DNA of 64,000 nucleotides from Sediminicoccus rosea (GTDB taxonomy: Bacteria; Pseudomonadota; Alphaproteobacteria; Acetobacterales; Acetobacteraceae), in assembly GCF_033547095.1 (NCBI RefSeq), contig NZ_CP137852.1:2039501-2103500 (forward strand). Direction: 5' to 3'. How positions within the stretch are numbered: position 1 is the first letter of the stretch; every line of letters starts with the position of its first letter. Shown here in pieces: positions 25,396 through 36,949 of this stretch. Below the pieces are notes generated by a model. That model worked only from the letters and a program-made list of their open reading frames with translations, was not told the origin of the DNA and did not search any database. Position numbers and translations under genes: made by a program.

Positions 25396-25441
25396 GGATA
25401 CGCGTGTCACGACCGAGCTTGCCCTGGGCGGCCTCGCCGGC

Positions 25442-26002
25442 ATGAGCGAGGCCGAGGAAAGGCCCGCGCGCGATGCGCGCTGGTCGGACCTGATGGCGCG
25501 CGCCCAGGCGGGGGACGCGCGCGCCTATGACATGCTGCTGCGCGAATGCCTGCCGCTGCTGCGCGCCATCTGCCGCCGCCGCCTGAGCGACGCGGCCGAG
25601 GTGGAGGATGCCGTGCAGGACACGCTGCTGACGCTGCACCGCGTGCGCGCCACCTATGACCCGGCGCGCCCCTTCCGCCCCTGGGTCGCCGCCATCGCCG
25701 AGCGCCGCGCGCTGGACCGTGGGCGCGGCGTGGCGCGTGGCCTCTCGCGCCACACGGTGCTGGAGGCGGCCGAGCATGTCGGCGCCGAGGGCGATGCCGA
25801 GCAGCGGCTGGATGCGGCCGACCTGCGGACGGCGGTGGGGCAATTGCCGGCCTCGCAGCGCACCGCGCTGCAACTGACGAAGATCGAGGCGCTCTCGCTG
25901 GCGGAGGCGAGCGCGCGTTCGGGCATGTCCATGGGGGCGCTCAAGGTCGCCACCCATCGCGCCATCCAGAGCCTGCGCCGCAAACTCGGCAGGGAGCCAT
26001 GA
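25442..26002 (+). CDS. ECF RNA polymerase sigma factor (SigF/NrsF-linked group)
   Basis: The 186-residue product has sigma region 2 (residues about 17-85: AYDMLLRECLPLLRAICRRR, then AEVEDAVQDTLLTLHRVRATYDP and PWVAAIAERRALDRGR) and region 4 (about 120-180: LPASQRTALQLTKIEALSLAEASARSGMSMGALKVATHRA). There is no region 3. It directs RNA polymerase to stress promoters. The next gene encodes an NrsF-type membrane anti-sigma factor and overlaps it by four bases, so the two form the usual sigma/anti-sigma pair. A matching promoter-like element precedes the gene. Confidence 0.93.
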   Translation: MSEAEERPARDARWSDLMARAQAGDARAYDMLLRECLPLLRAICRRRLSDAAEVEDAVQDTLLTLHRVRATYDPARPFRPWVAAIAERRALDRGRGVARGLSRHTVLEAAEHVGAEGDAEQRLDAADLRTAVGQLPASQRTALQLTKIEALSLAEASARSGMSMGALKVATHRAIQSLRRKLGREP

Positions 26003-26652
26003 CCATGCGGACCGAAGACCTCATCAGCCAGTTGAGCCGCGGGCTCAAGCCGGTGCGCCGGCTGCCCTCGCCGCTCGCCATGCTGGGGCTGTGGTGCCTG
26101 TTCTGCGCGGGCGTGATCGGCGCGGCGCTGCTGATCTCGGGCCTGCGCGCCGATTTCGCGGCCTGGCTGATGGACGGGTTCGACCTCTACCACCTCATGT
26201 CCGCCGCGCTGGTGGCGCTGACGGCGGGCTATGCCGCCTTCCAGCTGGCCCTGCCCGACCGCGACCAGCGCTGGGCGCTGCTGCCGGTGCCGGCGGTGGT
26301 GGGCTGGCTCGTGACGATGGGCTGGGGCTGCCTCGAGGATCTGGCGCGGCTGGGGCCGGAGGCGCTGCAGCTCGGCGTCAGCCTGCCCTGCCTCAGCTTC
26401 ATCATCGGCCTTGGCCTGCCGATGACGGCGGCCATCGTCTTCCTCACGCGGCATGCGGCGCTGCTGCGGCCGGTGCCGGTGGCGGCTCTCGGCGCGCTCT
26501 CGGCCGCGGCCTTCGCGAGCCTCGGCCTGACCCTGGTGCATGAGCTGAACGCGGCGGTGATGGTGCTGGTCTGGCATGGCCTCGCGGTGCTGGTGGTGAC
26601 GGCGCTGGGCGCGCTGGCCGGGCCCCTGCTGATGCAGCGCGCGGCGCTGTGA
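25999..26652 (+). CDS. nrsF: NrsF family (DUF1109) membrane anti-sigma factor
   Basis: A 217-residue protein with a short cytoplasmic N-terminus (MTMRTEDLISQLSRGLKPVR) and six membrane segments, the architecture of NrsF/DUF1109 proteins that hold an ECF sigma factor at the membrane until a stress signal releases it. Cysteines are at 33, 36, 111 and 131. In the Caulobacter homologue CC3252 I recall two conserved Cys (131 and 181) being needed for the metal response; here Cys131 is present but the second site reads LVHELN with no Cys. The signal sensed may therefore differ. Four-base overlaps link it to the sigma gene and the DUF3047 gene. Confidence 0.9.
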   Translation: MTMRTEDLISQLSRGLKPVRRLPSPLAMLGLWCLFCAGVIGAALLISGLRADFAAWLMDGFDLYHLMSAALVALTAGYAAFQLALPDRDQRWALLPVPAVVGWLVTMGWGCLEDLARLGPEALQLGVSLPCLSFIIGLGLPMTAAIVFLTRHAALLRPVPVAALGALSAAAFASLGLTLVHELNAAVMVLVWHGLAVLVVTALGALAGPLLMQRAAL

Positions 26653-27293
26653 TCCCACGCCGGGCCGCGCTCGCCCTGCCGCTGGCCGCGCCGCGCGCCG
26701 CCCGGGCCCAGGAACTGGACCCGCGCCTTGCCGAGGCGGGCTGGCGCCTGCAGCCGGTGCGCGGCCGTGCCGTCGCGCAATTCACGCTGGAAGAGGCGGG
26801 CTCCATCCGCGTCACCGCGCGCGATTCCGTGGGCTTCCTCCTGCGCCCCTTTCCCGGGCCGCCCGGCCGCCTCGCCTGGCGCTGGCGCCTGGAAAGCGCG
26901 GCCCCGCCCAGTGACGCCGGGGCGCGCGGCGCCGATGACCGCTCGGCCGCCCTGCATGTGCTCTTCGCGGCCAGCGGCGCGCTCGCCTTCATGCGCCGGG
27001 GCCTGACGCCGGAGGGCATGGCCGGCCGCGGCCTCACCTATTGCTGGGGCGGCGGGCCGCCGGGCCGGCGCCTGCCCAACCCCTATGCGCCGCGCGATGG
27101 CGCCGTGATCATCCTGCGCGGGGAGGAGGCGCCGCTCGCCACCTGGCTGGAGGAGGTGGTGGATGTCGCCGCGGATCACGCGGCGGCCTTCGGCGAGCCG
27201 GCGCCGGCCGTGACCCACCTGGCGCTGTCCGCCGATACGGATGACCGGGGCGGCCTGGCCGTGGCGCGGATCATGCCGCCGCGCTGGCTGTGA
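26649..27293 (+). CDS. DUF3047 family secreted protein
   Basis: The 214 residues start with a short signal peptide (MIPRRAALALPLAAPRAARAQ). The remainder matches the DUF3047 pattern as I know it: LAWRWRLESA followed by an Asp-rich GADDRSAALHVLF, YCWGGG, PNPYAPRDGAVIILRG, and a terminal LALSADTDDRGG. It begins at GTG 26649, four bases inside the nrsF gene, so it is part of the sigma operon. Function unknown; placement suggests a periplasmic member of the same stress response. Confidence 0.8.
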   Translation: MIPRRAALALPLAAPRAARAQELDPRLAEAGWRLQPVRGRAVAQFTLEEAGSIRVTARDSVGFLLRPFPGPPGRLAWRWRLESAAPPSDAGARGADDRSAALHVLFAASGALAFMRRGLTPEGMAGRGLTYCWGGGPPGRRLPNPYAPRDGAVIILRGEEAPLATWLEEVVDVAADHAAAFGEPAPAVTHLALSADTDDRGGLAVARIMPPRWL

Positions 27294-27417: not shown

Positions 27418-28875
27418 ATGACCCATGACGAGACCCCCACACCGGCCGCGCGCCGCCCGCGCCGGAAGGGCGACGTGCTGCATGCCGATCTCTGCGTGAT
27501 CGGCGCGGGCTCGGCCGGGCTCTCGCTCGCGGCCGGCGCCGTTCAGATGGGCGCCTCGGTCGTGCTGATCGAGAAGCACCGGATGGGGGGCGATTGCCTG
27601 AACACGGGCTGCGTTCCCTCCAAGGCGCTGCTCGCCGCCGCCCATGCGGCGGAGGCGGCGCGCGGGGCGGCGCGCTTCGGCGTGGACGTGCCCGCCCCCG
27701 TGGTGGATTTCGCCCGCGTCCATGCGCATGTGCAGGGCGTCATCGCCACCATCGCCCCGCATGACAGCGTGGAGCGCTTCGAGGGGCTGGGCTGCACGGT
27801 CATCCGCGCCGCCGCCCGCTTCACCGGCCCGCGCGAGGTGGCCGCCGGCGGCCAGCGCATCCGCGCGCGGCGCTTCGTGGTGGCGAGCGGCTCCTCGCCC
27901 GCGCTGCCGCCGGTCCCCGGCCTCGCCGAGACGCCGCATCTGACCAATGAGACGATCTTCGAACTGACCGAGCGGCCAGAGCATCTGCTGGTGTTGGGCG
28001 GCGGGCCGATCGGCATCGAGATGGCGCAGGCCTTCCGGGGCCTCGGCTCGGCGGTGACGGTGATCCAGCGCGACACCATCCTGCCGCGCGACGAGCCCGA
28101 GGCGGTGGCGATCCTGCGCGAGATCCTGCGCGGCCAGGGCATCACGCTGATCGAGGGCGCGCAGGTGGCGCGCATCCGGCCCGGCGTGCAGGTCGAGCTG
28201 GCCGACGGCACGGTCATCGCGGGCTCGCACCTGCTGGTGGCGGCGGGGCGCAAGCCCAACCTGGATGGGCTCGACCTCGCTTTGGCGGGTGTGGAGGTGA
28301 CGCCGCGCGGCATCACGGTGGATCGGCGGCTGCGCAGCACGAACCGGCGCGTCTTCGCCGCGGGTGATGTCGCGGGCGGGCCGCAATTCACCCATGTGGC
28401 GGGCTACCATGCGGGCGTGCTGATCCGGAACATCCTCTTCGGCTTGCCCGCGAAGGTGGATTACGCGGCGCTGCCCTGGGTGACCTATTGCGACCCGGAA
28501 CTCGCCCATGTGGGCCTGACCGAGGCCGAGGCGCGGCTCGCCAGCCACCCGGTGCAGGTCCTGCTGCAGCCGCTCTCCGGCAATGACCGCGCGGTGGCGG
28601 AGCGGAGCGACCAGGGCCTGGCCAAGATCATCCTGGGCGGCGGCGGGCGCATCCTGGGGGCGACGATCCTGGCCCCCCGCGCCGGTGAAATGATCGGCCT
28701 CTGGGGGCTGGCCATCCAGTCCAGGATGAAGATCGGCGCGGTGGCGCAGATGATGGCGCCCTATCCGACCATGTCCGAGATTTCCAAGCGCGCGGCCGGC
28801 GCCTTCTACACGCCGAGCCTGTTTTCCGCGCGCACGCGGCGGATCGTGGGCTGGATCCAGAGGCTGCTGCCATGA
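27418..28875 (+). CDS. FAD-dependent pyridine nucleotide-disulfide oxidoreductase (MerA/Lpd-like)
   Basis: The 485-residue flavoenzyme has an FAD-binding GAGSAGLSLA at about residue 29, the redox disulfide Cys60/Cys65 in GGDCLNTGCVPSKAL, an NAD(P)-binding VLGGGPIGIEMAQA near 190, the FAADGDVAG-type site (RVFAAGDVAGG) near 315 and the dimerisation domain. The C-terminal active-site motif reads APYPTMSE, with Tyr where lipoamide dehydrogenases have His, and there is no vicinal Cys pair and no N-terminal NmerA domain, so it is neither a typical Lpd nor mercuric reductase. It leads an eight-gene cassette and overlaps the next gene by four bases. Confidence 0.9.
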   Translation: MTHDETPTPAARRPRRKGDVLHADLCVIGAGSAGLSLAAGAVQMGASVVLIEKHRMGGDCLNTGCVPSKALLAAAHAAEAARGAARFGVDVPAPVVDFARVHAHVQGVIATIAPHDSVERFEGLGCTVIRAAARFTGPREVAAGGQRIRARRFVVASGSSPALPPVPGLAETPHLTNETIFELTERPEHLLVLGGGPIGIEMAQAFRGLGSAVTVIQRDTILPRDEPEAVAILREILRGQGITLIEGAQVARIRPGVQVELADGTVIAGSHLLVAAGRKPNLDGLDLALAGVEVTPRGITVDRRLRSTNRRVFAAGDVAGGPQFTHVAGYHAGVLIRNILFGLPAKVDYAALPWVTYCDPELAHVGLTEAEARLASHPVQVLLQPLSGNDRAVAERSDQGLAKIILGGGGRILGATILAPRAGEMIGLWGLAIQSRMKIGAVAQMMAPYPTMSEISKRAAGAFYTPSLFSARTRRIVGWIQRLLP

Positions 28876-29573
28876 GGTGGCTTCGCGACAGGCGGCTCTG
28901 GCTGCTCCTTGGGGCCTTGGCCCTGCTCGGGGTGTTACGCGCCACCGGGCTCGGTGAGCTGCTCTCGCTCGATACGCTGGCGCGGCACCGCGAGGCGCTG
29001 GGCGGCTTCGTCGCGCGCAACGCGCTGCTGGCGGCGGGCGGCTTCGTGCTGGTCTATGCGGCGGCGGTGGCGCTTTCCGTGCCGGGGGCCATCATCCTCA
29101 CGCTCGCGGGCGGCTTCCTCTTCGGCGCGGTGCTGGGCACGCTGCTCACCGTGCTGGGGGCGACCATCGGCGCCACGCTGGTCTTCCTCTTCGCCCGCAC
29201 CATCTTCGGCGAGAACGCGCTGGACCGCTTCGGCGCCCCGGCGCAGCGCCTGGCCGAGGGCATCCGCCGCAACGCCGCCTCCTACCTGCTGGTGCTGCGG
29301 CTGGTGCCGCTGTTTCCCTTCTTCCTGGTCAACCTCGTGCCCGCCTTCGTGGGCGTGAAGCTGCCGGTCTACGTGCTGACGACCTTCTTCGGCATCATGC
29401 CCGGCACCTTCGTCTTCAGCCTGACCGGCGCGGGGCTGGGTTCCATCCTGGATGCCGGCGGCACGCTCGACCTCGGCGCGGTGCTGACGCCGCAGATCCT
29501 GGGCGCGCTGCTGGGCCTCGCCGCGCTCTCGCTCGCGGCCATCCCGCTCAAGAACAGGTTCGCCGCGAAATGA
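28872..29573 (+). CDS. TVP38/TMEM64 family membrane protein (VTT domain)
   Basis: A 233-residue inner-membrane protein with five to six hydrophobic segments and the VTT/SNARE-associated domain: SVPGAIILTLAGGFLFGAVLGT at about residue 68, FLFARTIFGEN, and the RLVPLFPFFLVNLVPAFVGV re-entrant region near 140, followed by FFGIMPGTFVF. Family members move or scramble lipids or ions and often lie beside MerA-like flavoproteins, as here. Starts four bases inside the flavoprotein gene and overlaps the DUF547 gene by four bases. Confidence 0.9.
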   Translation: MRWLRDRRLWLLLGALALLGVLRATGLGELLSLDTLARHREALGGFVARNALLAAGGFVLVYAAAVALSVPGAIILTLAGGFLFGAVLGTLLTVLGATIGATLVFLFARTIFGENALDRFGAPAQRLAEGIRRNAASYLLVLRLVPLFPFFLVNLVPAFVGVKLPVYVLTTFFGIMPGTFVFSLTGAGLGSILDAGGTLDLGAVLTPQILGALLGLAALSLAAIPLKNRFAAK

Positions 29574-30355
29574 TCCGCCGCCGCGCCCTCGGCCTCCTGG
29601 CCCCGGCCATCCTCATCGGCCCCGCCCAAGCGGCGGAGCCCGGCCTCGATGCGCTGCTCGGTCGCTACGCCGGCACGCCCGCCGATGGCGTGACGCGTGT
29701 GGCCTATGGCCGCTGGAAGGCGAGCGCCGCCGACATGGCCGCCCTCGACGCCTGGATCGCCGAGGCCGCGACGCGCCGCCCCTCGGCCATGCCGCGGGGC
29801 GAGGCCTTCGCCTTCTGGGCCAATCTCTACAACGCGCTCACGCTCAAGCTCGTGCTGGAGCGCTATCCGGTGCGCTCCATCAAGGACATCCGCTCGACCG
29901 GCGTCGGTCTCGATCCGCGGCAATTCCTCGGGCCCTGGCGCACGCGCCTCGTCACCATCGAGGGCACGCGCATGTCGCTGGACGATATCGAGCACGGCAC
30001 GATGCGCCCGACCTTCCGCGATCCGCGCGTGCATTACGCGGTGAACTGCGCCTCCATCGGCTGCCCGAACCTGCCGCTGCGCGCCTGGCGGGCGGCGAGC
30101 TTGGAAGCCGATCTGGACGCCGCCGCCCGCGCCTTCGTGAACCACCCGCGCGGTGCGGCCCTGCTTGCGGGCGGGGGCCTGCGCGTCTCCTCCATCTATC
30201 GTTGGTTCCGCGAGGATTTCGGCGGCGATGATGCGGGCATCCTCGCGCATCTCCGCCGCCATGCCGCACCCCCGCTGGCCGATGCGCTGCGAAATGTCAC
30301 CCGCATCGCGGAAGATGCCTATGATTGGGCGTTGAACGACGCCACGCCGTCCTGA
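29570..30355 (+). CDS. DUF547 family secreted protein
   Basis: A 261-residue exported protein (signal peptide to about residue 21, AQA cleavage). DUF547 hallmarks are visible: EAFAFWANLYNALTLKLVLERYP near residue 80 and HYAVNCASIGCPNLPLRAW near 155, which holds the conserved Cys-rich site of this family (papain-like fold suspected by others, activity unproven). It overlaps the TVP38 gene by four bases and is followed after 18 bases by the radical SAM gene. Confidence 0.88.
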   Translation: MIRRRALGLLAPAILIGPAQAAEPGLDALLGRYAGTPADGVTRVAYGRWKASAADMAALDAWIAEAATRRPSAMPRGEAFAFWANLYNALTLKLVLERYPVRSIKDIRSTGVGLDPRQFLGPWRTRLVTIEGTRMSLDDIEHGTMRPTFRDPRVHYAVNCASIGCPNLPLRAWRAASLEADLDAAARAFVNHPRGAALLAGGGLRVSSIYRWFREDFGGDDAGILAHLRRHAAPPLADALRNVTRIAEDAYDWALNDATPS

Positions 30356-30373
30356 ATTCCGGAGAGCCCCGCC

Positions 30374-31327
30374 TTGTCCCTTCGCAGCCAGACCACGACG
30401 CCGCTCCTGCCCGGCAAGTTCCAGGATCCCGACTGGACGCTGAAGGGCGAGCGGCGCGCGAGCGTCGCCCTCGCGGCGCTGGAGACGCTGTGGTTCAACA
30501 CCGGCACGCTTTGCAACATCACCTGCGCCAATTGCTACATCGAGAGCAGCCCGCGCAATGACGCGCTGGTCTATCTCACTGCCGCCGAGGTGCGCGGCTA
30601 CCTGGACGAGGCGGCCGGCTTCCCGGTGGCGGAGGTGGGCTTCACCGGCGGCGAGCCCTTCATGAACCCGGACCTCGTGCCGATGCTGGAGGATGTTCTC
30701 TCGCGCGGGTTGCGCGCGCTGGTGCTGACCAATGCGATGCAGCCCATGCGGCGCTATGCCGCCCCCCTGCTGGCGCTGCGCGACCGGCACGGGACGGGCA
30801 ACCTCATCCTCCGCGTCAGCCTCGACCATCACGACGCCGCCATCCATGACCTGGAGCGCGGCGCGGGCAGCTTCGCCCGGACCATGGAGGGGCTCGGCTG
30901 GCTGGCGCGCGAGGGCTTCCAGTTGCATGTCGCCGGCCGCGCGGGCTTCGGCGCGGAGGACGAGGCGGCGATGCGCGCGGGCTTCGCGCGCCTCTTCGCG
31001 GCGCACGGCATCCCGGTGGATGCCGAGGACCCCGTGGCCCTCATGCTCTTCCCCGAGATGGACGAGGGGCGCGACGTGCCGGAGATCACCGAGGCCTGCT
31101 GGGGCATTCTGAAGAAATCGCCCGAGTCCATGATGTGCGCCTCCTCCCGCATGGTGGTGAAGCGCAAGGGGGCCGAGCGGCCGGCCGTGCTGGCCTGCAC
31201 GCTGCTGGCCTATGATGAGCGCTTCGAACTGGGCGCCACGCTGACCGAGGCGGCGCGGCCGGTTTCGCTGAACCACCCGCATTGCGCCACCTTCTGCGTG
31301 CTGGGTGGCGCGGCCTGCAGTCGATGA
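30374..31327 (+). CDS. Radical SAM protein with extra C-terminal cysteines
   Basis: The 317-residue enzyme has the [4Fe-4S] radical SAM site Cys47-x3-Cys51-x2-Cys54 (CNITCANCYIE) and the GFTGGEPFMNP SAM-binding segment near residue 94. Six more Cys occur near the C-terminus (242, 255, 275, 304, 308, 315), enough for an auxiliary Fe-S cluster of the twitch/SPASM kind. It is not ArsS, whose site reads CNQxCxHCH. Product unknown. The start is TTG 30374 and the stop overlaps the following acetyltransferase-like gene by four bases. It is the most likely chemistry-defining enzyme of the cassette. Confidence 0.88.
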   Translation: MSLRSQTTTPLLPGKFQDPDWTLKGERRASVALAALETLWFNTGTLCNITCANCYIESSPRNDALVYLTAAEVRGYLDEAAGFPVAEVGFTGGEPFMNPDLVPMLEDVLSRGLRALVLTNAMQPMRRYAAPLLALRDRHGTGNLILRVSLDHHDAAIHDLERGAGSFARTMEGLGWLAREGFQLHVAGRAGFGAEDEAAMRAGFARLFAAHGIPVDAEDPVALMLFPEMDEGRDVPEITEACWGILKKSPESMMCASSRMVVKRKGAERPAVLACTLLAYDERFELGATLTEAARPVSLNHPHCATFCVLGGAACSR

Positions 31328-32085
31328 CGCTGGACTTCGTGCCGCTGAGCGCGCGGCCCGACCTTGCCGATGCGCTCGATACGCCGGAATTCCGCGCGCT
31401 CTGGCCGGAATTCATGATGCACGACCCGGCCGCCGACCTGCGCTTCAATGCGGCGGCCTTCTCGCGCTACCTCGATTTCTCCTTCGCGATCCTCGACCCG
31501 GCCCGGCCGGACCGGCCGGTCGGCCGTTCCTTCGCCGTGCCCTTCCACTTCACCGGCGAATTGCCGGATTCCGGCTGGGACGGCGTGATCCGGATGGCGC
31601 ATGCGGATGCGGTCGCCGGCCGCGCGCCGAACGCGCTGAGCGCGCTGGAGATCACGCTGCTGCCCACGCATCGCGGCCAGGGCCAATCGGCCGCCATCCT
31701 CCGGGCGATGCGTCGCCATGCCGCGGCGCGGGGCCTTGGCCATCTCTTCGCGCCCGTCCGCCCCACCGCGAAGCAGCACGAGCCCTTCCTGCCGATGGCG
31801 GACTACCTGGCGCGCCGCACGGCGGAGGGCTTCGCGACGGACCCCTGGGTGCGCACGCATGAGCGCATCGGCGGGCGCGTCATCAAGATCGCGCCGACCA
31901 GCATGGTGATCCCCGGCACGCTCGCCGAGTGGCGCCGCTGGACCGGCCTGCCGCTTGGCGCTTCGGGGCCTGTCGCCATCGAAGGCGGGCTGACGCCGCT
32001 GCATGTGTCCGTCGAGCAGGACCACGCCGTCTATGTCGAGCCCAATGTCTGGATCGAACATCCCCTGGAAGACCCCGCCGCATGA
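31324..32085 (+). CDS. GNAT-fold N-acetyltransferase-like protein
   Basis: The 253-residue product contains a GNAT core: ALEITLLPTHRGQGQSAAILRAMRRHAAARG near residues 105-135 has the acetyl-CoA loop (RGQGQS). The C-terminal part adds GGRVIKIAPTSMVIPGTLAEW and a beta-rich end, so it is larger than a minimal GNAT. The substrate is unknown; given the neighbours it may acetylate the radical SAM product. Four-base overlaps on both sides bind it into the cassette. Confidence 0.78.
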   Translation: MTLDFVPLSARPDLADALDTPEFRALWPEFMMHDPAADLRFNAAAFSRYLDFSFAILDPARPDRPVGRSFAVPFHFTGELPDSGWDGVIRMAHADAVAGRAPNALSALEITLLPTHRGQGQSAAILRAMRRHAAARGLGHLFAPVRPTAKQHEPFLPMADYLARRTAEGFATDPWVRTHERIGGRVIKIAPTSMVIPGTLAEWRRWTGLPLGASGPVAIEGGLTPLHVSVEQDHAVYVEPNVWIEHPLEDPAA

Positions 32086-32936
32086 TGCATCGCCGCTCGC
32101 TCCTCGCCGCGCCACTCCTGTCGCCGGGCCTCGCCCAGGCGCAGACGCGCGCGCCGATCCGCTTCGCCGTCGGCCCCTTCCAGCCGACCGCGGGCGACAC
32201 GCGCCGCGCCTTCGAGCCCTTTTTCGCGCATCTGGCGCAGGCGCTGGGCCGGCCCTACGAACTCACCGTCACCACCGACTGGGCCGGCATCGCCGTCGCA
32301 CTCGGCGCGGGCCAGGTGGATGCGGCCTGGATGGGACCCTGGGGCTACGTCCTGGCGCGCGACCGGGCGCGGGCTGAGGCGCTGGCGACGGTGCTCTACC
32401 AGGGGCGGCCCACCTACCACGCGATCATCCTGGCGCGCGCGGGCCTCACCATTGCCCGCTTTCCGGATGATGCACGCGGCCTCTCGATCTCCTTCGCCGA
32501 TGCGGGCTCGACCAGCGGCTGGCTCATCCCGCATCACTGGTTCGCGCAGCAGGGCATCGAGGTGCGGCGCTTCTTCCAGTATCGCGACGGCGCGAGCCAT
32601 GCGGCGAACGTGATTTCCGTGGCCTCGGGCCAGGTGGACCTCGCCACCGATTTCGACCGCAACTTCAACGCCATGCTGGCTTCCGGCCGGGTGCGGCCCG
32701 AGCAGGCGCGCATCGTCTGGCAGAGCGAGCCGCTGCCCAATGACGCGCTCGCCGTCCGGCATGACCTGGATGCGGCGACGAAATCGGCACTCGCCGCCGC
32801 CGCGCTCGCCATCACGCCCGAGCAGGCGGTACGCGTCATGCCGGCCAACTACACGGGCTGGGTGGCGGCGACCCCCAGCACCTATGCGCTGATCGAGGCG
32901 GCGGGGCGGTCATTGGGGCGGCTGCGCACCTCGTGA
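32082..32936 (+). CDS. PhnD-like phosphate/phosphite/phosphonate ABC substrate-binding protein
   Basis: Periplasmic receptor of 284 residues with a short signal peptide (MMHRRSLLAAPLLSPGLAQA). The mature part matches the PhnD/PtxB pattern: RFAVGPFQPTAGDTRRAFEPFFAHLAQALG, VDAAWMGPWGYVLA, SISFADAGSTSGWLIPHH (ligand-binding STSG loop) and ASHAANVISVASGQVDLA. Family members bind phosphonates, phosphite or similar oxyanions; arsenic or other oxyanions are conceivable. Starts at ATG 32082 with a four-base overlap and is followed by the permease gene. Confidence 0.86.
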   Translation: MMHRRSLLAAPLLSPGLAQAQTRAPIRFAVGPFQPTAGDTRRAFEPFFAHLAQALGRPYELTVTTDWAGIAVALGAGQVDAAWMGPWGYVLARDRARAEALATVLYQGRPTYHAIILARAGLTIARFPDDARGLSISFADAGSTSGWLIPHHWFAQQGIEVRRFFQYRDGASHAANVISVASGQVDLATDFDRNFNAMLASGRVRPEQARIVWQSEPLPNDALAVRHDLDAATKSALAAAALAITPEQAVRVMPANYTGWVAATPSTYALIEAAGRSLGRLRTS

Positions 32937-33673
32937 AGCTGGGTTGGCTTGCCTTCATCGCTCTGCTGCTGGGCTCGGCCTGGGTGGTGGCGCCCGATCC
33001 GGCGCGGCTGGCGGCCGGGTTGCCGCGCCTCGCGGGCTGGCTTGCCGGCGCCTGGCCCCCCGATTTCTCCGATGCCGGGGACATTGCGCGCCGCGCGGGC
33101 GAAACGCTGGGTATCGCCACCCTCGGCACGCTCGCCGCCGCGCTGATGGCGGTGCCGCTCGCGCTGCTGGCGACGCGGCAGGTGACGCCGGGCTTCGCGC
33201 TCTACCACCCGCTGCGCGCCGTGCTGGATGCGTTGCGCGGCGTGGATGGCTTCGTCTTCGCGCTGCTCTTCGTCGCCGCCGTGGGCCTCGGCCCCTTCGC
33301 GGGCATGCTGGGCGTCGCGCTGCATTCGGCGGGCTCGGTCGCCAAGCTCTGGTCCGAGACGATGGAGGAGGCCGATCCGCGCCCGGCCGAGGCGATCCTC
33401 GCGGTCGGCGGCTCGCGCTGGCATGTCGCGCTCTGTGCCCTGGTGCCGCAGACGCTGCCGCAGAACCTGGGCGCGCTGCTCTATGTGTGGGAGGCGAATA
33501 TCCGCGCCTCCACCGTGCTCGGCCTGGTCGGTGCGGGCGGGCTCGGGCAGGAGCTGAAGAACGCGGTGGACCTGCTGGATTTCAACCGCGTGCTTGCCAT
33601 CCTCATCGTCATCATCGCCCTGACCCTGGCGGCGGACCGCATCAGCGGCGCCCTGCGCCGAAGCCTGTCCTGA
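32933..33673 (+). CDS. PhnE-like ABC transporter permease
   Basis: A 246-residue inner membrane permease with five to six segments and the PhnE-type EAA loop around AEAILAVGGSRWHVALCALVPQTLP near residue 160, then NIRASTVLGLVGAGGLGQEL near 190. It starts at GTG 32933, four bases inside the receptor gene. No ATPase gene (PhnC type) lies anywhere in the cassette or near it, so the transporter must borrow an ATPase encoded elsewhere. Confidence 0.87.
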   Translation: MKLGWLAFIALLLGSAWVVAPDPARLAAGLPRLAGWLAGAWPPDFSDAGDIARRAGETLGIATLGTLAAALMAVPLALLATRQVTPGFALYHPLRAVLDALRGVDGFVFALLFVAAVGLGPFAGMLGVALHSAGSVAKLWSETMEEADPRPAEAILAVGGSRWHVALCALVPQTLPQNLGALLYVWEANIRASTVLGLVGAGGLGQELKNAVDLLDFNRVLAILIVIIALTLAADRISGALRRSLS

Positions 33674-33685
33674 AGGTTGCCTCGC

Positions 33686-34522
33686 ATGATCCCGACGCTG
33701 CGGCTCGACGCGCCCCTCCTAGTCATGGGCGGGCCCTATTCCAACCTGCAGGCGACCGAGGCGCTGCTGGCCGAGGCCGCGCGGCGCGGCATCCCGGGGG
33801 AGCACATCCTCTGCACCGGCGATGTCGTCGCCTATGCCGCCGATGCCGCGGCCTGCTGCGACCTGATGATGCAGAGCGGCGCCCGGGTGCTGATGGGCAA
33901 TTGCGAGGAGAACCTCGCGGCCGGCGCCGAGGATTGCGGCTGCGGCTTCGCCGAGGACACGGCGTGCGACCTGCTCTCGCGCGCCTGGTATGCCCATGCG
34001 CTCCGCCAGGTGACCGCCCGCCACCGCGCCTGGATGGGCGGGCTGCCGCGCCGCATCCATCTCGACCTGCCCGATGGCCGCAGGCTCGCCGTGCTGCATG
34101 GCGGCGCGCGGGAGATCAGCCGCTTCCTCTTCGCCTCGGCCGGGGATGAGGAATTGCGGGCGGAACTCGCGGCGACCGGCTGCGCCGGCGTCATCGCCGG
34201 GCATTGCGGCATCCCCTTCGCCCGGCGGCTTGCGGGCGGCGGGCTCTGGCTCAATGCGGGCGCGATCGGCATGCCGGCCAATGACGGCACGCCGCGCGTC
34301 TGGTTCGCGCTGCTGACGCCGGGGCCGCGCGAACTCGGCATCGAGATCCTGCCGCTCGCCTATGACCACGCCGCCGCCGCCGCCGCGATGCGCCGGGCGC
34401 GCCTGCCCGAGGGCTATGCGGCGGGGCTGGAGAGCGGGCTCTGGCCCTCCTGCGACGTGCTGCCGCCGGCCGAACTGGCCGCGCGCGGGCAGGCGCTGGC
34501 GCCGCGGCGCCTGGTCTGGTGA
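33686..34522 (+). CDS. Metallophosphoesterase family protein
   Basis: The 278-residue protein follows the calcineurin-like order: GGPYSN (15-20), CTGDVVAY with Gly45-Asp46, GNCEEN (71-76), LHGG with His138, and AGHCGIPF with His173. The usual first motif DxH is replaced by GPYSN, so the first metal site is altered. A Cys-rich patch (EDCGCGFAEDTAC) follows motif III. ATG 33686 is preferred over TTG 33677. It closes the cassette; the next gene faces it, four bases away. Confidence 0.85.
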   Translation: MIPTLRLDAPLLVMGGPYSNLQATEALLAEAARRGIPGEHILCTGDVVAYAADAAACCDLMMQSGARVLMGNCEENLAAGAEDCGCGFAEDTACDLLSRAWYAHALRQVTARHRAWMGGLPRRIHLDLPDGRRLAVLHGGAREISRFLFASAGDEELRAELAATGCAGVIAGHCGIPFARRLAGGGLWLNAGAIGMPANDGTPRVWFALLTPGPRELGIEILPLAYDHAAAAAAMRRARLPEGYAAGLESGLWPSCDVLPPAELAARGQALAPRRLVW

Positions 34523-34526
34523 GGGC

Positions 34527-35681
34527 TCAGCGCGTCTCGCCGTAGTGTGAGCCGATCCGGTCGTCCCAGGCGCGGAGCATATAGGCGCGCGCGGCGGCGC
34601 TGAGCGGCGGCGCCACGGCGCGGCCTTCCAGCTCGGCCGCGAGCGAGGGCGTCAGCGCCTCGGTCCAGAGGCGGTCGGTCGGGGTCGTGTCGGTCACGCG
34701 CGGGCCGGTGCCGGGCACCAGGCCGCGGCCGAAGACGTGGCGCTGCATCCCGGGCTGGCCGAGGAAGGCGGCGAGGGGCTGCAACTGGGCGATGCGCGCC
34801 TCCGCCACGCCGCGCGGCACGGCGAGGATGAGGCTGTGCGGCAGCAGCGGCGCCGCCTGGAAGGGCGTGCAGAGCGTGTCGGGCGGCAGGAGGCGCTGGC
34901 CCATGCCCAGCAGGTAGGGGCCGAGCAGCGCGGTGCTGAGGTCCACGCCGCCCTCCAGGAATTCCTCCGTCGCCGCCTCGCCGGAGCTTGGGTAATAGGC
35001 GACGTGCTGGCCGAGCTCGGCGAGGTAGGCCCAGGTGGCGGGCCAGCCGGCGCGCGGATCGAGCGGATCGGAGTCGTTCAGGAGATAGGGCAGGCCGGTC
35101 ACGAAGGTCTGGCCGAAGCGTGACTGGCCGGGCCGCGTGTACTGGAAGCGCCGCGGATTCTGCCGGGCATAGTCCAGCAGCTCCTCCGCCGTGCGCGGCG
35201 CCGTGGGCAGGACGGAGCGGCGATGCACCAGCACCGGGCCGCCCGGCACGGCACCGAGGACGAGGCCGCTCGCGCCGATGCGCTCCTGCACCAATTGCCC
35301 GGCGGGGGTCAGGCCCGGCGTATTGGCCGCCAGCAGCGCGGCCGGCACCTCCTGCCAGAGGTCGCGCGCGGCGCCGAGCGCATGGCCCGCGATGTTGGTG
35401 ATCACGGCATCGGTGCCCGGCAGCCCGGCCTCGACCTCCTCGCGCAGCTCGGTCGCGATCCAGGGCACGTTCTCGATCCGCAGCGTGCCGACCGGCAGGT
35501 GGAAATCCGGATGATCCTGCAGCTCGGTGAGTACGGCCGTGTTCAGCCGCGGCCCCTCGCCGGCGATGACGACGAAGAGGTCACCCGCGTGCGGGGCCTG
35601 GGCCCAAGCCGAAGGGGGGGCGCGCGTGGCGCCGGCCGTGGCGGCGGCGGCCAGCAGGGAGCGGCGGGAGAGGCGGCTCAT
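34527..35681 (-). CDS. Extracytoplasmic solute-binding protein
   Basis: A 384-residue exported protein with a Tat-like SRRSLLAAAATAGA signal. The mature part has the periplasmic-receptor character of the TTT/Bug class: PHAGDLFVVIAGEGPR at the start, LDYARQNPRRFQYTRPGQSRFGQT in the middle (compare ARPG segments of Bug proteins) and LGQPGMQRHVFGRGLVPGT. Ligand unknown. Its start overlaps the GH8 stop by four bases, so it is co-translated with the glucanase gene upstream. Confidence 0.65.
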   Translation of the reverse strand: MSRLSRRSLLAAAATAGATRAPPSAWAQAPHAGDLFVVIAGEGPRLNTAVLTELQDHPDFHLPVGTLRIENVPWIATELREEVEAGLPGTDAVITNIAGHALGAARDLWQEVPAALLAANTPGLTPAGQLVQERIGASGLVLGAVPGGPVLVHRRSVLPTAPRTAEELLDYARQNPRRFQYTRPGQSRFGQTFVTGLPYLLNDSDPLDPRAGWPATWAYLAELGQHVAYYPSSGEAATEEFLEGGVDLSTALLGPYLLGMGQRLLPPDTLCTPFQAAPLLPHSLILAVPRGVAEARIAQLQPLAAFLGQPGMQRHVFGRGLVPGTGPRVTDTTPTDRLWTEALTPSLAAELEGRAVAPPLSAAARAYMLRAWDDRIGSHYGETR

Positions 35682-36949
35682 CGGGGCGGCGCCAGGCCGC
35701 GCAGCCCTGCCGGAACGCCGCGCACCTGCGACTGCTCCGCGCTCAGGTTGCGCGACCACTGGGCCTGGACGGGCGCGGGGGAGGGCGGCTCGGCCACCTC
35801 CTCATCGCCGCGCCAGCGGGCCCAGGCGGCCTGGGCCGCGCCCATCAGCCGCTCGGTGCGGGAGGGCGGGGTGGCAGGCGTGGGGGGCACCAGCGCCGGG
35901 GGCTGCGGGGCCATGTGCGGCGCGATGCGCGTCTGCAGCACCAGCGCCGCGCCGAAGTAATCGGGCGCGTCGGCGACGCCGAGCGGCGTGCCCACCGTCT
36001 CGCCGAAGCGGCTGCGGACCAGCGCATGGATGGCGCGGATGCCGGCATGGCCCGGATAGGGCGCGATCTCGCCGGTCCCGAGATCCACCCAGGCGGGCGG
36101 GCGCCGGGGGTGGTTCGGGAAGTCCCAGAATTCGCGGGAGGCCGGGAGCGGGCCCACATCCAGCCCCTGCCAGGCGAGGTTCAGCGGCACCCGCACCGCA
36201 TCCCAGGCGAAGCGGTTGGGCCAGCGGCCGGCATTCACCGGCGGCCCGCCCTGTGCGGGCAACAGCAGCCAGTCGGGTGGCAGGCGCCAGCGGCCGAAGG
36301 CCGCCTCGTCCATCAGCCGCAGCCCATCCTGCTCCAGTGCCGCCCAGCGCGCATCGGGCACGAGGCGCGAGAGGGCGCGCAGCGCCGGAAAGGCGTAGTA
36401 GGAGAGGTTGATGATGACGCCCTGCGAATCCTGGAAGCCATGGATGCCGGGCAGCAGCAGCGTGCGGCCCTGGAACTCGATCACGCAGCAGCGCAGGATG
36501 TCGGCCGTGATGCGCTGCGCTGCCTCGCGATAGGCGGGGACGTTCCAGCGCTCGGCCGCCATGAGGAGCGACCAGGCGATGAAGATGTCGCCATCCGTCG
36601 CGTTGTTCATGTCGGTCACGCCGGCGCGGCTGTTGGGGTCGAAGCGCCAGGCGGCGAGGCTGTCGCTCGGGCGCGCCAGGTTGCGGCGCGTCCAGTTCCA
36701 CATCAGGTCGAAGCGCGCGCGGTCGTCGAAATGCACGGCGAAGAGCATGGAATAGCCCTGGCCCTCGCTGTGCGAGATGCCGCGGTTGGCGGTATCGATG
36801 ATGCGGCCCTCGGGCGCCATGTAGCGCCGCACATAGGCCTGCCATTCATTGGGCCCGGGCGGCGGGGGCGGGGCGGCCAGCGCCGGGGCGAGGGTCAGCA
36901 GGAAGGCGGCCAGAAGGATGAGCGCGCGGTGCGTCAGGGCCAGGGGCAT
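35678..36949 (-). CDS. Glycoside hydrolase family 8 endoglucanase-like
   Basis: A 423-residue secreted enzyme with a signal peptide to about residue 26. The GH8 core follows the BcsZ pattern: RGISHSEGQGYSMLFAV with the proposed acid Glu62, WRFDPNSR, NNATDGDIFIAWSL with Asp119/Asp121 in the DGD box, and YYAFPAL. GH8 enzymes cut beta-1,4-glucans such as cellulose. In many bacteria the gene sits in a bcs operon, but no cellulose synthase is in this window; it shares a transcript with a solute receptor instead. The last 80 residues are Pro/Arg-rich and unordered. ATG 36949 is used. Confidence 0.87.
   Translation of the reverse strand: MPLALTHRALILLAAFLLTLAPALAAPPPPPGPNEWQAYVRRYMAPEGRIIDTANRGISHSEGQGYSMLFAVHFDDRARFDLMWNWTRRNLARPSDSLAAWRFDPNSRAGVTDMNNATDGDIFIAWSLLMAAERWNVPAYREAAQRITADILRCCVIEFQGRTLLLPGIHGFQDSQGVIINLSYYAFPALRALSRLVPDARWAALEQDGLRLMDEAAFGRWRLPPDWLLLPAQGGPPVNAGRWPNRFAWDAVRVPLNLAWQGLDVGPLPASREFWDFPNHPRRPPAWVDLGTGEIAPYPGHAGIRAIHALVRSRFGETVGTPLGVADAPDYFGAALVLQTRIAPHMAPQPPALVPPTPATPPSRTERLMGAAQAAWARWRGDEEVAEPPSPAPVQAQWSRNLSAEQSQVRGVPAGLRGLAPPR

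Follow-up and report, generated by a model that had tools for sequence, protein, structure and literature searches.

A possible arsenosugar-type gene cassette in Sediminicoccus rosea combining a remote ArsS homologue, an altered calcineurin-fold protein and an oxyanion-type importer

A cassette of eight genes is located in a 64,000-nucleotide (nt) stretch of Sediminicoccus rosea DNA (the window, to which coordinates refer unless stated otherwise). It encodes a flavoprotein, a VTT/TVP38 membrane protein, a DUF547 protein, a radical SAM protein of an unnamed family (rSAM), an accessory protein (gene 5), a substrate-binding protein (SBP) of the PhnD family, a PhnE-type permease and a metallophosphoesterase-like protein of calcineurin fold with an altered metal site (MPE). 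The reading that we favour, tentatively and with slightly less than even confidence, is that the cassette constitutes a metal-stress-regulated variant of arsenosugar-type carbon–arsenic (C–As) biosynthesis that operates without ArsM and is fed by an imported oxyanion. The cassette is placed with the ArsS-type pathways because it shares partners with them, because its rSAM is homologous to ArsS, and because MPE is found with PhnD, PhnE and PhnC (PhnDEC) beside true ArsS. Arsenic is the presumed, rather than the observed, atom.

The rSAM displays a CxxxCxxC motif and six further cysteines. The motif and Cys255, Cys275, Cys304, Cys308 and Cys315 are invariant in a family alignment of 19 rows. The closest relative among the named loci, which represent the best 80 of 549 relatives, is found in Roseococcus sp. 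SDR (93%). The protein reaches 51.9 bits with the ArsS model TIGR04167, which has a cut-off of 300, so that the statement of an initial annotation of this DNA that the enzyme is not ArsS holds by the NCBIfam standard. That statement is corrected as regards kinship: an hhalign comparison of the window rSAM family with 18 ArsS proteins gave a probability of 99 and an E value of 3.9e-18 over 216 columns, and the addition of two bridging members from outside the class (L215 and L216) gave 3.9e-19 over 273 columns, reaching the C-terminus. Judged from these profiles, the rSAM family is a remote homologue of ArsS along its length. The bridging protein of L216 covers positions 4–299 of the 303 of TIGR04167, yet scores 50.8 of 300 bits. 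Its C-terminal end, HHRCYSCFAYGSSC, is intermediate between that of the window rSAM, HPHCATFCVLGGAAC, and that of ArsS, HCFGCTAGAGSSC, and through it the C-terminal cysteines of the window rSAM align with those of ArsS, but the window protein ends in GGAAC and not in GSSC. The predicted structure of the rSAM (predicted local distance difference test, pLDDT, 85.6) has BlsE, SuiB and SkfB as its nearest structures.

The genes surrounding the rSAM were counted in 133 distinct loci, that is, 136 minus identical rSAM cores, with loci shorter than 4.5 kb left out. Six-frame phmmer searches with seed proteins and self-chosen thresholds were used because the gene caller misses some genes in high-GC loci, and neighbour families were grouped by connected components. 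The sample is skewed to relatives of the window, many of its stretches are short, and its counts are not independent. MPE was found in 37 of these loci, TIGR04282 in 36, the flavoprotein in 34, VTT in 32, TIGR04283 in 31, PhnD and NrsF in 17 each, ArsM in 8 and MTAP (MTA phosphorylase) in 4; in some loci VTT and the flavoprotein share one frame. The recurrent TIGR04282 and TIGR04283 proteins, of families that bear the NCBI name arsenosugar biosynthesis glycosyltransferase, score 189.8 and 221.2 bits against cut-offs of 134 and 182, respectively. For comparison, a family with a single member in a 4 Mb genome should, by our estimate, turn up by chance within 20 kb of a chosen gene about 0.5% of the time. 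The same kinds of neighbours surround ArsS. In 20 ArsS loci hand-picked from a phylum draw (398 genomes, 116 of them with ArsS), TIGR04282 and the flavoprotein were each found in 7, VTT and TIGR04283 in 6 each, ArsM in 4, and MTAP and DUF3047 in 3 each. A further 20 rSAM loci (L215–L234), taken from 34 places in the phylum draw, contain VTT, the flavoprotein or TIGR04282/TIGR04283 in 7 cases and an ArsM-like gene in 5 (L215, L216, L219, L220 and L232), with MTAP also present in L216 and L232. Four of the five ArsM-like proteins (that of L219 being unscored) reach 151–181 bits with NF008823, whose cut-off is 263, and are therefore relatives of ArsM rather than certified members. The likeness to arsenosugar clusters in their mixture of parts, proposed initially, is thus stronger in its shared neighbours than could be seen from the window.

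A direct link to ArsS was found in a class draw of 190 genomes, two of which (G263 and G395) have true ArsS (445 and 438 bits; cut-off 300). The gene order in both is a VTT–flavoprotein fusion, ArsS, MTA phosphorylase, a weakly TIGR04283-like gene, MPE on the opposite strand, PhnD, PhnE and PhnC. In locus L169 the weakly TIGR04283-like gene rests on overlapping gene calls. The new rSAM is absent from both genomes at an E value of 1e-20.

The MPE is tied to the rSAM by co-occurrence and by fusion. In the order sample (250 genomes) rSAM is present in 84 genomes, with matches at E ≤3.8e-77 and the next ones at 3.7e-10, and MPE in 41, all of them inside the 84 (Fisher p 8.6e-24, a statistic that, like all those on co-occurrence here, ignores relatedness). 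MPE and rSAM lie in one open frame, MPE first, in 19 of the 41 MPE genomes, as judged from the sizes and places of the open reading frames; the fused group of 20 referred to below counts G239 as well, although there the two parts do not share an open frame. The phylum draw has MPE in 6 genomes and rSAM in 32, and again all 6 are inside the 32. Four of the six come from one family containing Amylibacter kogurei, and one is a 1.2 Mb genome of 31% GC that looks SAR11-like. An alternative assigns the arsenic chemistry to the rSAM with its partners and regards MPE–PhnDEC as a separate helper, scavenging phosphorus to offset the competition between arsenate and phosphate. An oxyanion-type SBP would suit such a helper, as would the six loci of the order (L133–L138) in which MPE sits apart from rSAM and still accompanies PhnD–PhnE, with PhnC in five. 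The fusion of MPE to rSAM, the lack of any MPE genome without rSAM among the 41 and a metal site unlike that of a usual phosphatase oppose this alternative, which we consider quite improbable. A transporter gene of the major facilitator superfamily (MFS) precedes the fused gene in 11 of 15 fused loci, and PhnD was found in 1 of the 15. In Methylopila sp. Yamaguchi (L078), TIGR04282, TIGR04283, PhnC, PhnE and PhnD genes are divergent from a fused MPE–rSAM gene.

The predicted structure of the MPE (pLDDT 95.3) has the fold of SapH (3qfm) and 3rqz, with a template-modelling score against 3qfm of 0.74 by query and 0.82 by target. In the window protein GxY stands for the DxH motif and GHCG for GHxH; hence the Asp, the His and the second His of GHxH, all ligands of metal 1, are gone, and the Asp, Asn, His and His of the second site are kept. 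Across 49 distinct MPE sequences, including that of the window (numbering from ATG 33686), the second-site residues Asp46, Asn72, His138 and His173 are constant, as is the glycine in place of the last His; Gly16 is found in 48 and Tyr18 in 47. Cys84, Cys86 and Cys94 are likewise constant. Cys43 occurs in 48 sequences (Asn in the SAR11-like genome), and Cys73, which occupies the place of the GNH histidine, occurs in 47 (Val in both ArsS-linked copies). From these residues, the protein probably contains a mononuclear or thiolate site rather than being a usual phosphatase; given the loss of three metal-1 ligands, the dephosphorylation step proposed initially is not supported in its ordinary form. 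The change from GNH to GNC is in itself no argument against catalysis, because SapH has Trp at this position.

HtxB is the closest match of the SBP (256 bits), followed by PtxB and PhnD (75–83) and AioX (57), which agrees with the oxyanion-type import suggested by the initial annotation. Its pocket keeps Trp52, Arg178 and Asp206 of HtxB, and Asn128 and Phe158, which exclude a third oxygen in HtxB, are replaced by Ser and His, the third-oxygen residues of PtxB, in all 31 SBP rows compared. The seven pocket letters W-S-T-S-H-R-D are the same in 31 of 31 rows, rSAM- and ArsS-linked alike; several rows are copies of one gene, and one is without the last column. A putative 'hybrid' class of SBPs combining features of HtxB and PtxB is mentioned in the available text of PMC5700983, and the window SBP can be matched to it by its pocket residues only. 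Other ligands were considered. The selenate SBP model (TIGR04553) gives 81.1 of 250 bits, and dimethylarsinate, considered by analogy with hypophosphite (two oxygens), is weakened as a ligand by the third-oxygen residues Ser and His. The arsenite-binding SBP AioX binds As(III) through a cysteine ligand, and AioX-like binding was rejected for the window SBP, which has no cysteine. The main rival to our reading, owing to the binding protein, is a reduced-phosphorus pathway in which imported phosphite or a small phosphonate would be coupled by the rSAM to yield a phosphonosugar or phosphonolipid, with arsenosugar-type downstream partners. The closeness of the SBP to HtxB, its constant three-oxygen pocket, a PhnE above its cut-off and the lack of ArsM over its cut-off in the PhnDEC-type genomes examined speak for it; the MPE–PhnDEC block that adjoins true ArsS in two genomes and the ArsM-like genes that adjoin rSAM relatives speak against it. 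On balance we hold it to be unlikely.

No PhnC ATPase is encoded in the window cassette. A second, decayed copy of the cassette (L033) was found in the same 5.14 Mb genome at C1:1266000-1284000 (~1.27 Mb), with genes for TIGR04282, VTT, DUF547, rhodanese, GT87-like, GT2-like, rSAM, PhnD, PhnE, PhnC, extracytoplasmic function (ECF) sigma factor and NrsF proteins. Its rSAM matches that of the window at 73% over the full length and 75% over residues 12–317. The TIGR04282 and GT87 proteins score 134.4 bits (cut-off 134) and 25.0 bits (cut-off 25), and the MPE gene is broken, being partial with one in-frame stop. By eye, seemingly only the tail of the flavoprotein gene is left. The missing ATPase might be provided by PhnC of this copy.

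The unit reaches further upstream than the eight genes: ECF sigma factor, NrsF and DUF3047 genes are mutually joined by 4-base overlaps, and 124 nt separate the last of them from the flavoprotein gene. The exact motif GTAACC-N16-CGAA, the consensus of Caulobacter sigma-F, is present in 2 copies in the window against 0.01 expected. A survey with a slightly relaxed form of it covered 18 NrsF loci, one of which is the window and two of which, L053 and L143, represent a single region. The relaxed motif lies close before the flavoprotein gene in 8 of them, the seven besides the window (both L053 and L143 included) having it at a like distance; it also lies before the ECF gene in 4, at the start of a rhodanese gene in 6 and before the MFS gene in 1, and it is missing from 3. 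Its rate is 0.81 per 10 kb in these loci versus 0.22 in other loci. NrsF of this regulon has two conserved cysteines; the window NrsF has cysteines at positions 33, 36, 111 and 131 (unaligned to Caulobacter NrsF). ECF and NrsF genes and the promoter motifs are all present at the cassette, as expected for a sigma-F/NrsF regulon. In Caulobacter, NrsF-controlled sigma-F acts at GTAACC-N16-CGAA and responds to chromium and cadmium, according to the available text of PMC3511200. This control would also suit a metal-stress operon for membrane modification, in which the rSAM, glycosyl, VTT and DUF547 proteins would alter a glycolipid and the product would contain no metalloid. Such a possibility is further favoured by the GT87 and GT2-like genes of the second copy and by a second radical SAM gene, weakly similar to Tes (90 of 450 bits), in the plasmid cassette described below. 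It is opposed by the homology to ArsS and by the neighbours held in common with ArsS, ArsM and MTAP, and appears markedly improbable.

The eight open reading frames were recovered at the places given by the initial annotation (Table 1), and their close spacing agrees with the single unit that it inferred. Five 4-base overlaps (flavoprotein/VTT, VTT/DUF547, rSAM/gene 5, gene 5/PhnD and PhnD/PhnE) were found instead of the six claimed among the seven junctions. The others leave 18 nt before the rSAM, which starts with TTG, and 3 nt before the TTG of the MPE, or 12 nt to its ATG at 33686. Checks with NCBIfam and Pfam profiles confirm the families assigned initially, namely the disulfide oxidoreductase, VTT, DUF547, the radical SAM protein with extra cysteines, PhnD, PhnE and the calcineurin-type fold. 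Among the matches listed, NCBIfam cut-offs are passed by only two of the eight proteins, PhnE and the SBP, the latter with the broad TIGR01098. The flavoprotein, of the MerA/lipoamide dehydrogenase type, remains under equivalog cut-offs (NF004991, 458 of 620 bits; MerA, 375 of 454 bits). Gene 5 has no family above cut-off, two close relatives giving PF00583 at E 0.018 and no match. It was found in 4 of the 133 distinct loci and is a genus-level addition, weak as an acetyltransferase; the initially proposed acetylation step, and with it phosphonate acetylation by gene 5, was consequently dropped. Peptide maturation was also set aside, no precursor having been noticed. The exact eight-gene order is confined to close relatives among the loci seen, an outcome named initially as a refutation, and this favours a chance assembly of unrelated genes. 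The refutation does not extend to the modules: the search for conserved co-occurrence that had been called for shows that they recur in many genomes, more than expected by chance, and with the fusion this makes chance a next to negligible explanation. DUF3047 is also encoded in ArsS loci L169, L197, L198 and L201.

Table 1. Genes and promoter motifs of the cassette region in the 64,000-nt window.
Feature	Position	Strand	Evidence
Sigma-F-type motif GTAACC-N16-CGAA	25319..25344	+	exact; 97 nt before ECF ATG
ECF sigma factor	25442..26002	+	Sigma70_r2 52.9 and Sigma70_r4_2 33.5 bits on 25406-25999; ATG 25442 by eye
NrsF-type anti-sigma factor	25999..26652	+	PF06532 89.3 bits, cut-off 26.8; 4-base overlap with ECF
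DUF3047 protein	26649..27293	+	PF11249 86.1 bits
Sigma-F-type motif GTAACC-N16-CGAA	27350..27375	+	exact; 42 nt before flavoprotein ATG
MerA-like FAD disulfide oxidoreductase (Cys60/Cys65)	27418..28875	+	PF07992 198.5 bits
VTT/TVP38 membrane protein	28872..29573	+	PF09335 71.7 bits
DUF547 protein	29570..30355	+	PF04784 83.8 bits
rSAM, unnamed family, remote ArsS homologue	30374..31327	+	PF04055 50.1 bits
Gene 5, weakly GNAT-like accessory protein	31324..32085	+	PF00583 E 0.089, under cut-off
PhnD-family SBP, putative 'hybrid' PtxB/HtxB class	32082..32936	+	HtxB 256 bits; pocket W-S-T-S-H-R-D
PhnE-type ABC permease	32933..33673	+	TIGR01097 245.8 bits, cut-off 216.7
MPE, calcineurin-fold protein, altered metal site, conserved Cys	33686..34522 (or from TTG 33677)	+	Metallophos_2 29.8 bits, cut-off 27

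A gene for an SBP_bac_8 extracellular binding protein (34527-35759, minus strand) converges on the cassette. An annotated counterpart of the cassette is carried by plasmid p546-1 of Roseomonas haemaphysalidis (IAI59_RS17975-RS17940: TIGR04282, DUF547, two radical SAM proteins, SBP, PhnE, ATPase and metallophosphoesterase), the sole one of 72,556 plasmid records with an MPE match at E 1e-20. The extra radical SAM gene (L236:4432-5811) precedes the rSAM and shows weak similarity to TrsS (100 of 490 bits) and to the tetraether lipid synthase Tes. Other surroundings of the rSAM were noted by eye: in nine Reyranella-type loci it lies beside a pyridoxal-kinase gene, scored as PdxY in L083 only, and a LysE-like gene, and in eight roseobacter-type loci it is divergent from genes resembling those of glucose-6-phosphate dehydrogenase and 6-phosphogluconolactonase.

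Under the arsenosugar-type reading, thiol or metal stress would release the ECF factor from NrsF and open the two promoters; the motifs are observed and their function is assumed from Caulobacter. The SBP and PhnE, together with PhnC of the second copy, would then import a small oxyanion with three oxygens, as the pocket suggests, with arsenate or methylarsonate favoured and phosphite possible. The MerA-like flavoprotein may keep the atom or the thiols reduced. The MPE, with its cysteines and one metal site left, might hold or prepare the trivalent atom for the rSAM; a direct hand-over is supported by the fusion of the two, and yet the role of the MPE is the least certain step, presumed like the product itself. 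The rSAM would attach a 5'-deoxyadenosyl group to the atom, by extrapolation from ArsS, whose adenosylation, like the chemistry of ArsL, is treated in the available text of PMC12159101 and PMC8552651. Enzymes of the TIGR04282/TIGR04283 type, of which TIGR04282 is encoded in the second copy, would trim and glycosylate the nucleoside, and the VTT and DUF547 proteins would act at the membrane.

The replacement of ArsM by import, implicit in this scheme, is only a proposal, and the distribution of ArsM bears on it. ArsM was searched for with NF008823 at E 1e-40, which may miss weaker cases, in 79 genomes: the 41 of the order that have MPE, another 5 with MPE, the 2 with ArsS and 31 of the order's 43 that have rSAM but no MPE. 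As single proteins, the ArsM-like proteins of rSAM loci score 4.5e-44 to 2.4e-53. The window genome has no ArsM above the cut-off, its best match reaching 57.9 of 263 bits, and a search at E 1e-10 with the ArsM-like protein of L220 found no match in 16 of 17 genomes, including the window's and both ArsS–PhnDEC genomes, with a partial one in G078. Among the 133 loci, ArsM with MPE or PhnD occurs in none, ArsM alone in 8, MPE or PhnD alone in 38 and neither in 87. This mutual exclusion and the lack of ArsM in the window genome speak for the favoured reading.

Several of the counts weigh against the favoured reading. ArsM is over the cut-off in 5 of the 79 genomes, all in the fused MPE group, G239 included, and G172 stays under; this amounts to 5 of 20 fused versus 0 of 21 other MPE genomes (p 0.02). 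It is likewise found in 0 of 31 rSAM genomes without MPE, as in the 21 non-fused ones; lack of ArsM is therefore the rule for the rSAM family within the order and marks neither MPE nor PhnDEC. The window cassette contains no arsenic-specific gene, and TIGR04282/TIGR04283, MTAP and PhnC are likewise missing from it; for TIGR04282 and TIGR04283 this refers to the cassette genes scanned, a genome-wide search not having been made. The term 'arsenosugar' on the two families is an NCBI label and not a test. None of VTT, the flavoprotein, TIGR04282 and TIGR04283 lies within the stretch examined in 76 of the 133 rSAM loci, nor are any present in 11 of the 20 ArsS loci, and MPE and PhnD are found in 0 of these 20. 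No genome of the phylum draw has both MPE and ArsS (6 and 116 genomes, respectively). In four genomes of the same draw (L170, L172, L173 and L174) MPE and rSAM are at separate places and no PhnD is close to the MPE; in a fifth (L108/L171), again without PhnD, the two are about 2.9 kb apart. The SBP, moreover, has a phosphorus-compound binder, HtxB, as its nearest relative, and the GNH histidine is missing (GNW) from SapH too, an active relative according to its PDB title. Apart from these points, the phylum draw has no genome in common between its 32 with rSAM and its 116 with ArsS, which may reflect phylogeny alone, since 30 of the former and 0 of the latter belong to the window's class.

A bolder version of the arsenosugar-type reading, which we judge unlikely, is a route to an organometalloid sugar that needs no methyltransferase. 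Here the MPE would be a phosphoesterase fold turned into a metalloid carrier with thiols; with its frequent fusion partner, the sister enzyme of ArsS, it would take over the imported oxyanion and couple the reduced form of this to a 5'-deoxyadenosyl group, so that import and the MPE together replace ArsM. Such systems would be a main source of arsenosugar-type compounds among the Alphaproteobacteria, perhaps extending to SAR11-like and roseobacter genomes. Arsenosugars and arsenolipids are common in water and food chains, and only a small number of enzymes account for the known bacterial routes to C–As bonds. A family that is sister to ArsS and comes with its own importer and a modified phosphoesterase, often as a fusion, would point to new C–As, or carbon–phosphorus, radical chemistry; it would give the 'hybrid' SBP class a candidate role and allow tests of where the organoarsenicals of Alphaproteobacteria originate. 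The link is concealed by public annotations, which read radical SAM protein, metallophosphoesterase and phosphonate transporter. No description of the cluster was found in searches of the open PubMed Central literature, of which the available texts of PMC12718374, PMC13188914 and PMC8801600 were also drawn upon.

A comparison with known systems reveals partial likenesses. Of the NCBIfam models, that of the Rv1681 family (NF049973) gives the rSAM its highest score (95.9 of 380 bits), and the SBP matches Rv1680 (NF049985) weakly (20.6 of 400 bits), both far under the cut-offs. As a separate observation, this weak kinship suggests a parallel rSAM/SBP pair in Mycobacterium, where the two genes are presumably adjacent. 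SapH, an Ap4A hydrolase, and other calcineurin-type phosphoesterases share the fold of the MPE, which by contrast has lost metal-1 ligands, gained conserved cysteines and changed GNH to GNC. Three loci (L034, L040 and L041) have a fused MPE–rSAM gene beside what look like an ECF/NrsF pair and DUF692–DUF2063–DoxX genes, DUF692 and DUF2063 being assigned by eye and DoxX of L041 being a profile match. This set resembles the genes of the Caulobacter sigma-F regulon. The cassette shares with that regulon the ECF and NrsF genes and the exact GTAACC-N16-CGAA sites and differs from it in its targets, which in the available text of PMC3511200 are DUF692, DUF2063, DoxX, DUF2282 and YedY genes. With the reduced-phosphorus transporters HtxB and PtxB the SBP shares homology, the Trp, Arg and Asp of HtxB and the Ser and His of PtxB; it is distinguished by its 'hybrid' pocket, for which the available text of PMC5700983 gives no structure or assigned ligand. 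The arsinothricin cluster arsQML similarly combines a radical SAM enzyme with ArsM in forming a C–As bond; ArsL, however, has 428 residues and three conserved cysteines only and transfers a 3-amino-3-carboxypropyl group, and the available text of PMC8552651 describes no MPE or PhnDEC. Closest are the ArsS arsenosugar clusters (TIGR04167 with ArsM, MTAP, TIGR04282, TIGR04283, VTT and flavoprotein). Like them, the rSAM loci have these kinds of neighbours in part of the cases, VTT and the flavoprotein being present in the window cassette itself, and a homologous radical SAM protein with CxxxCxxC and an apparently similar C-terminal cysteine pattern; unlike them, the cassette has a different rSAM family, a genome without ArsM over the cut-off, and the addition of MPE and PhnDE(C).

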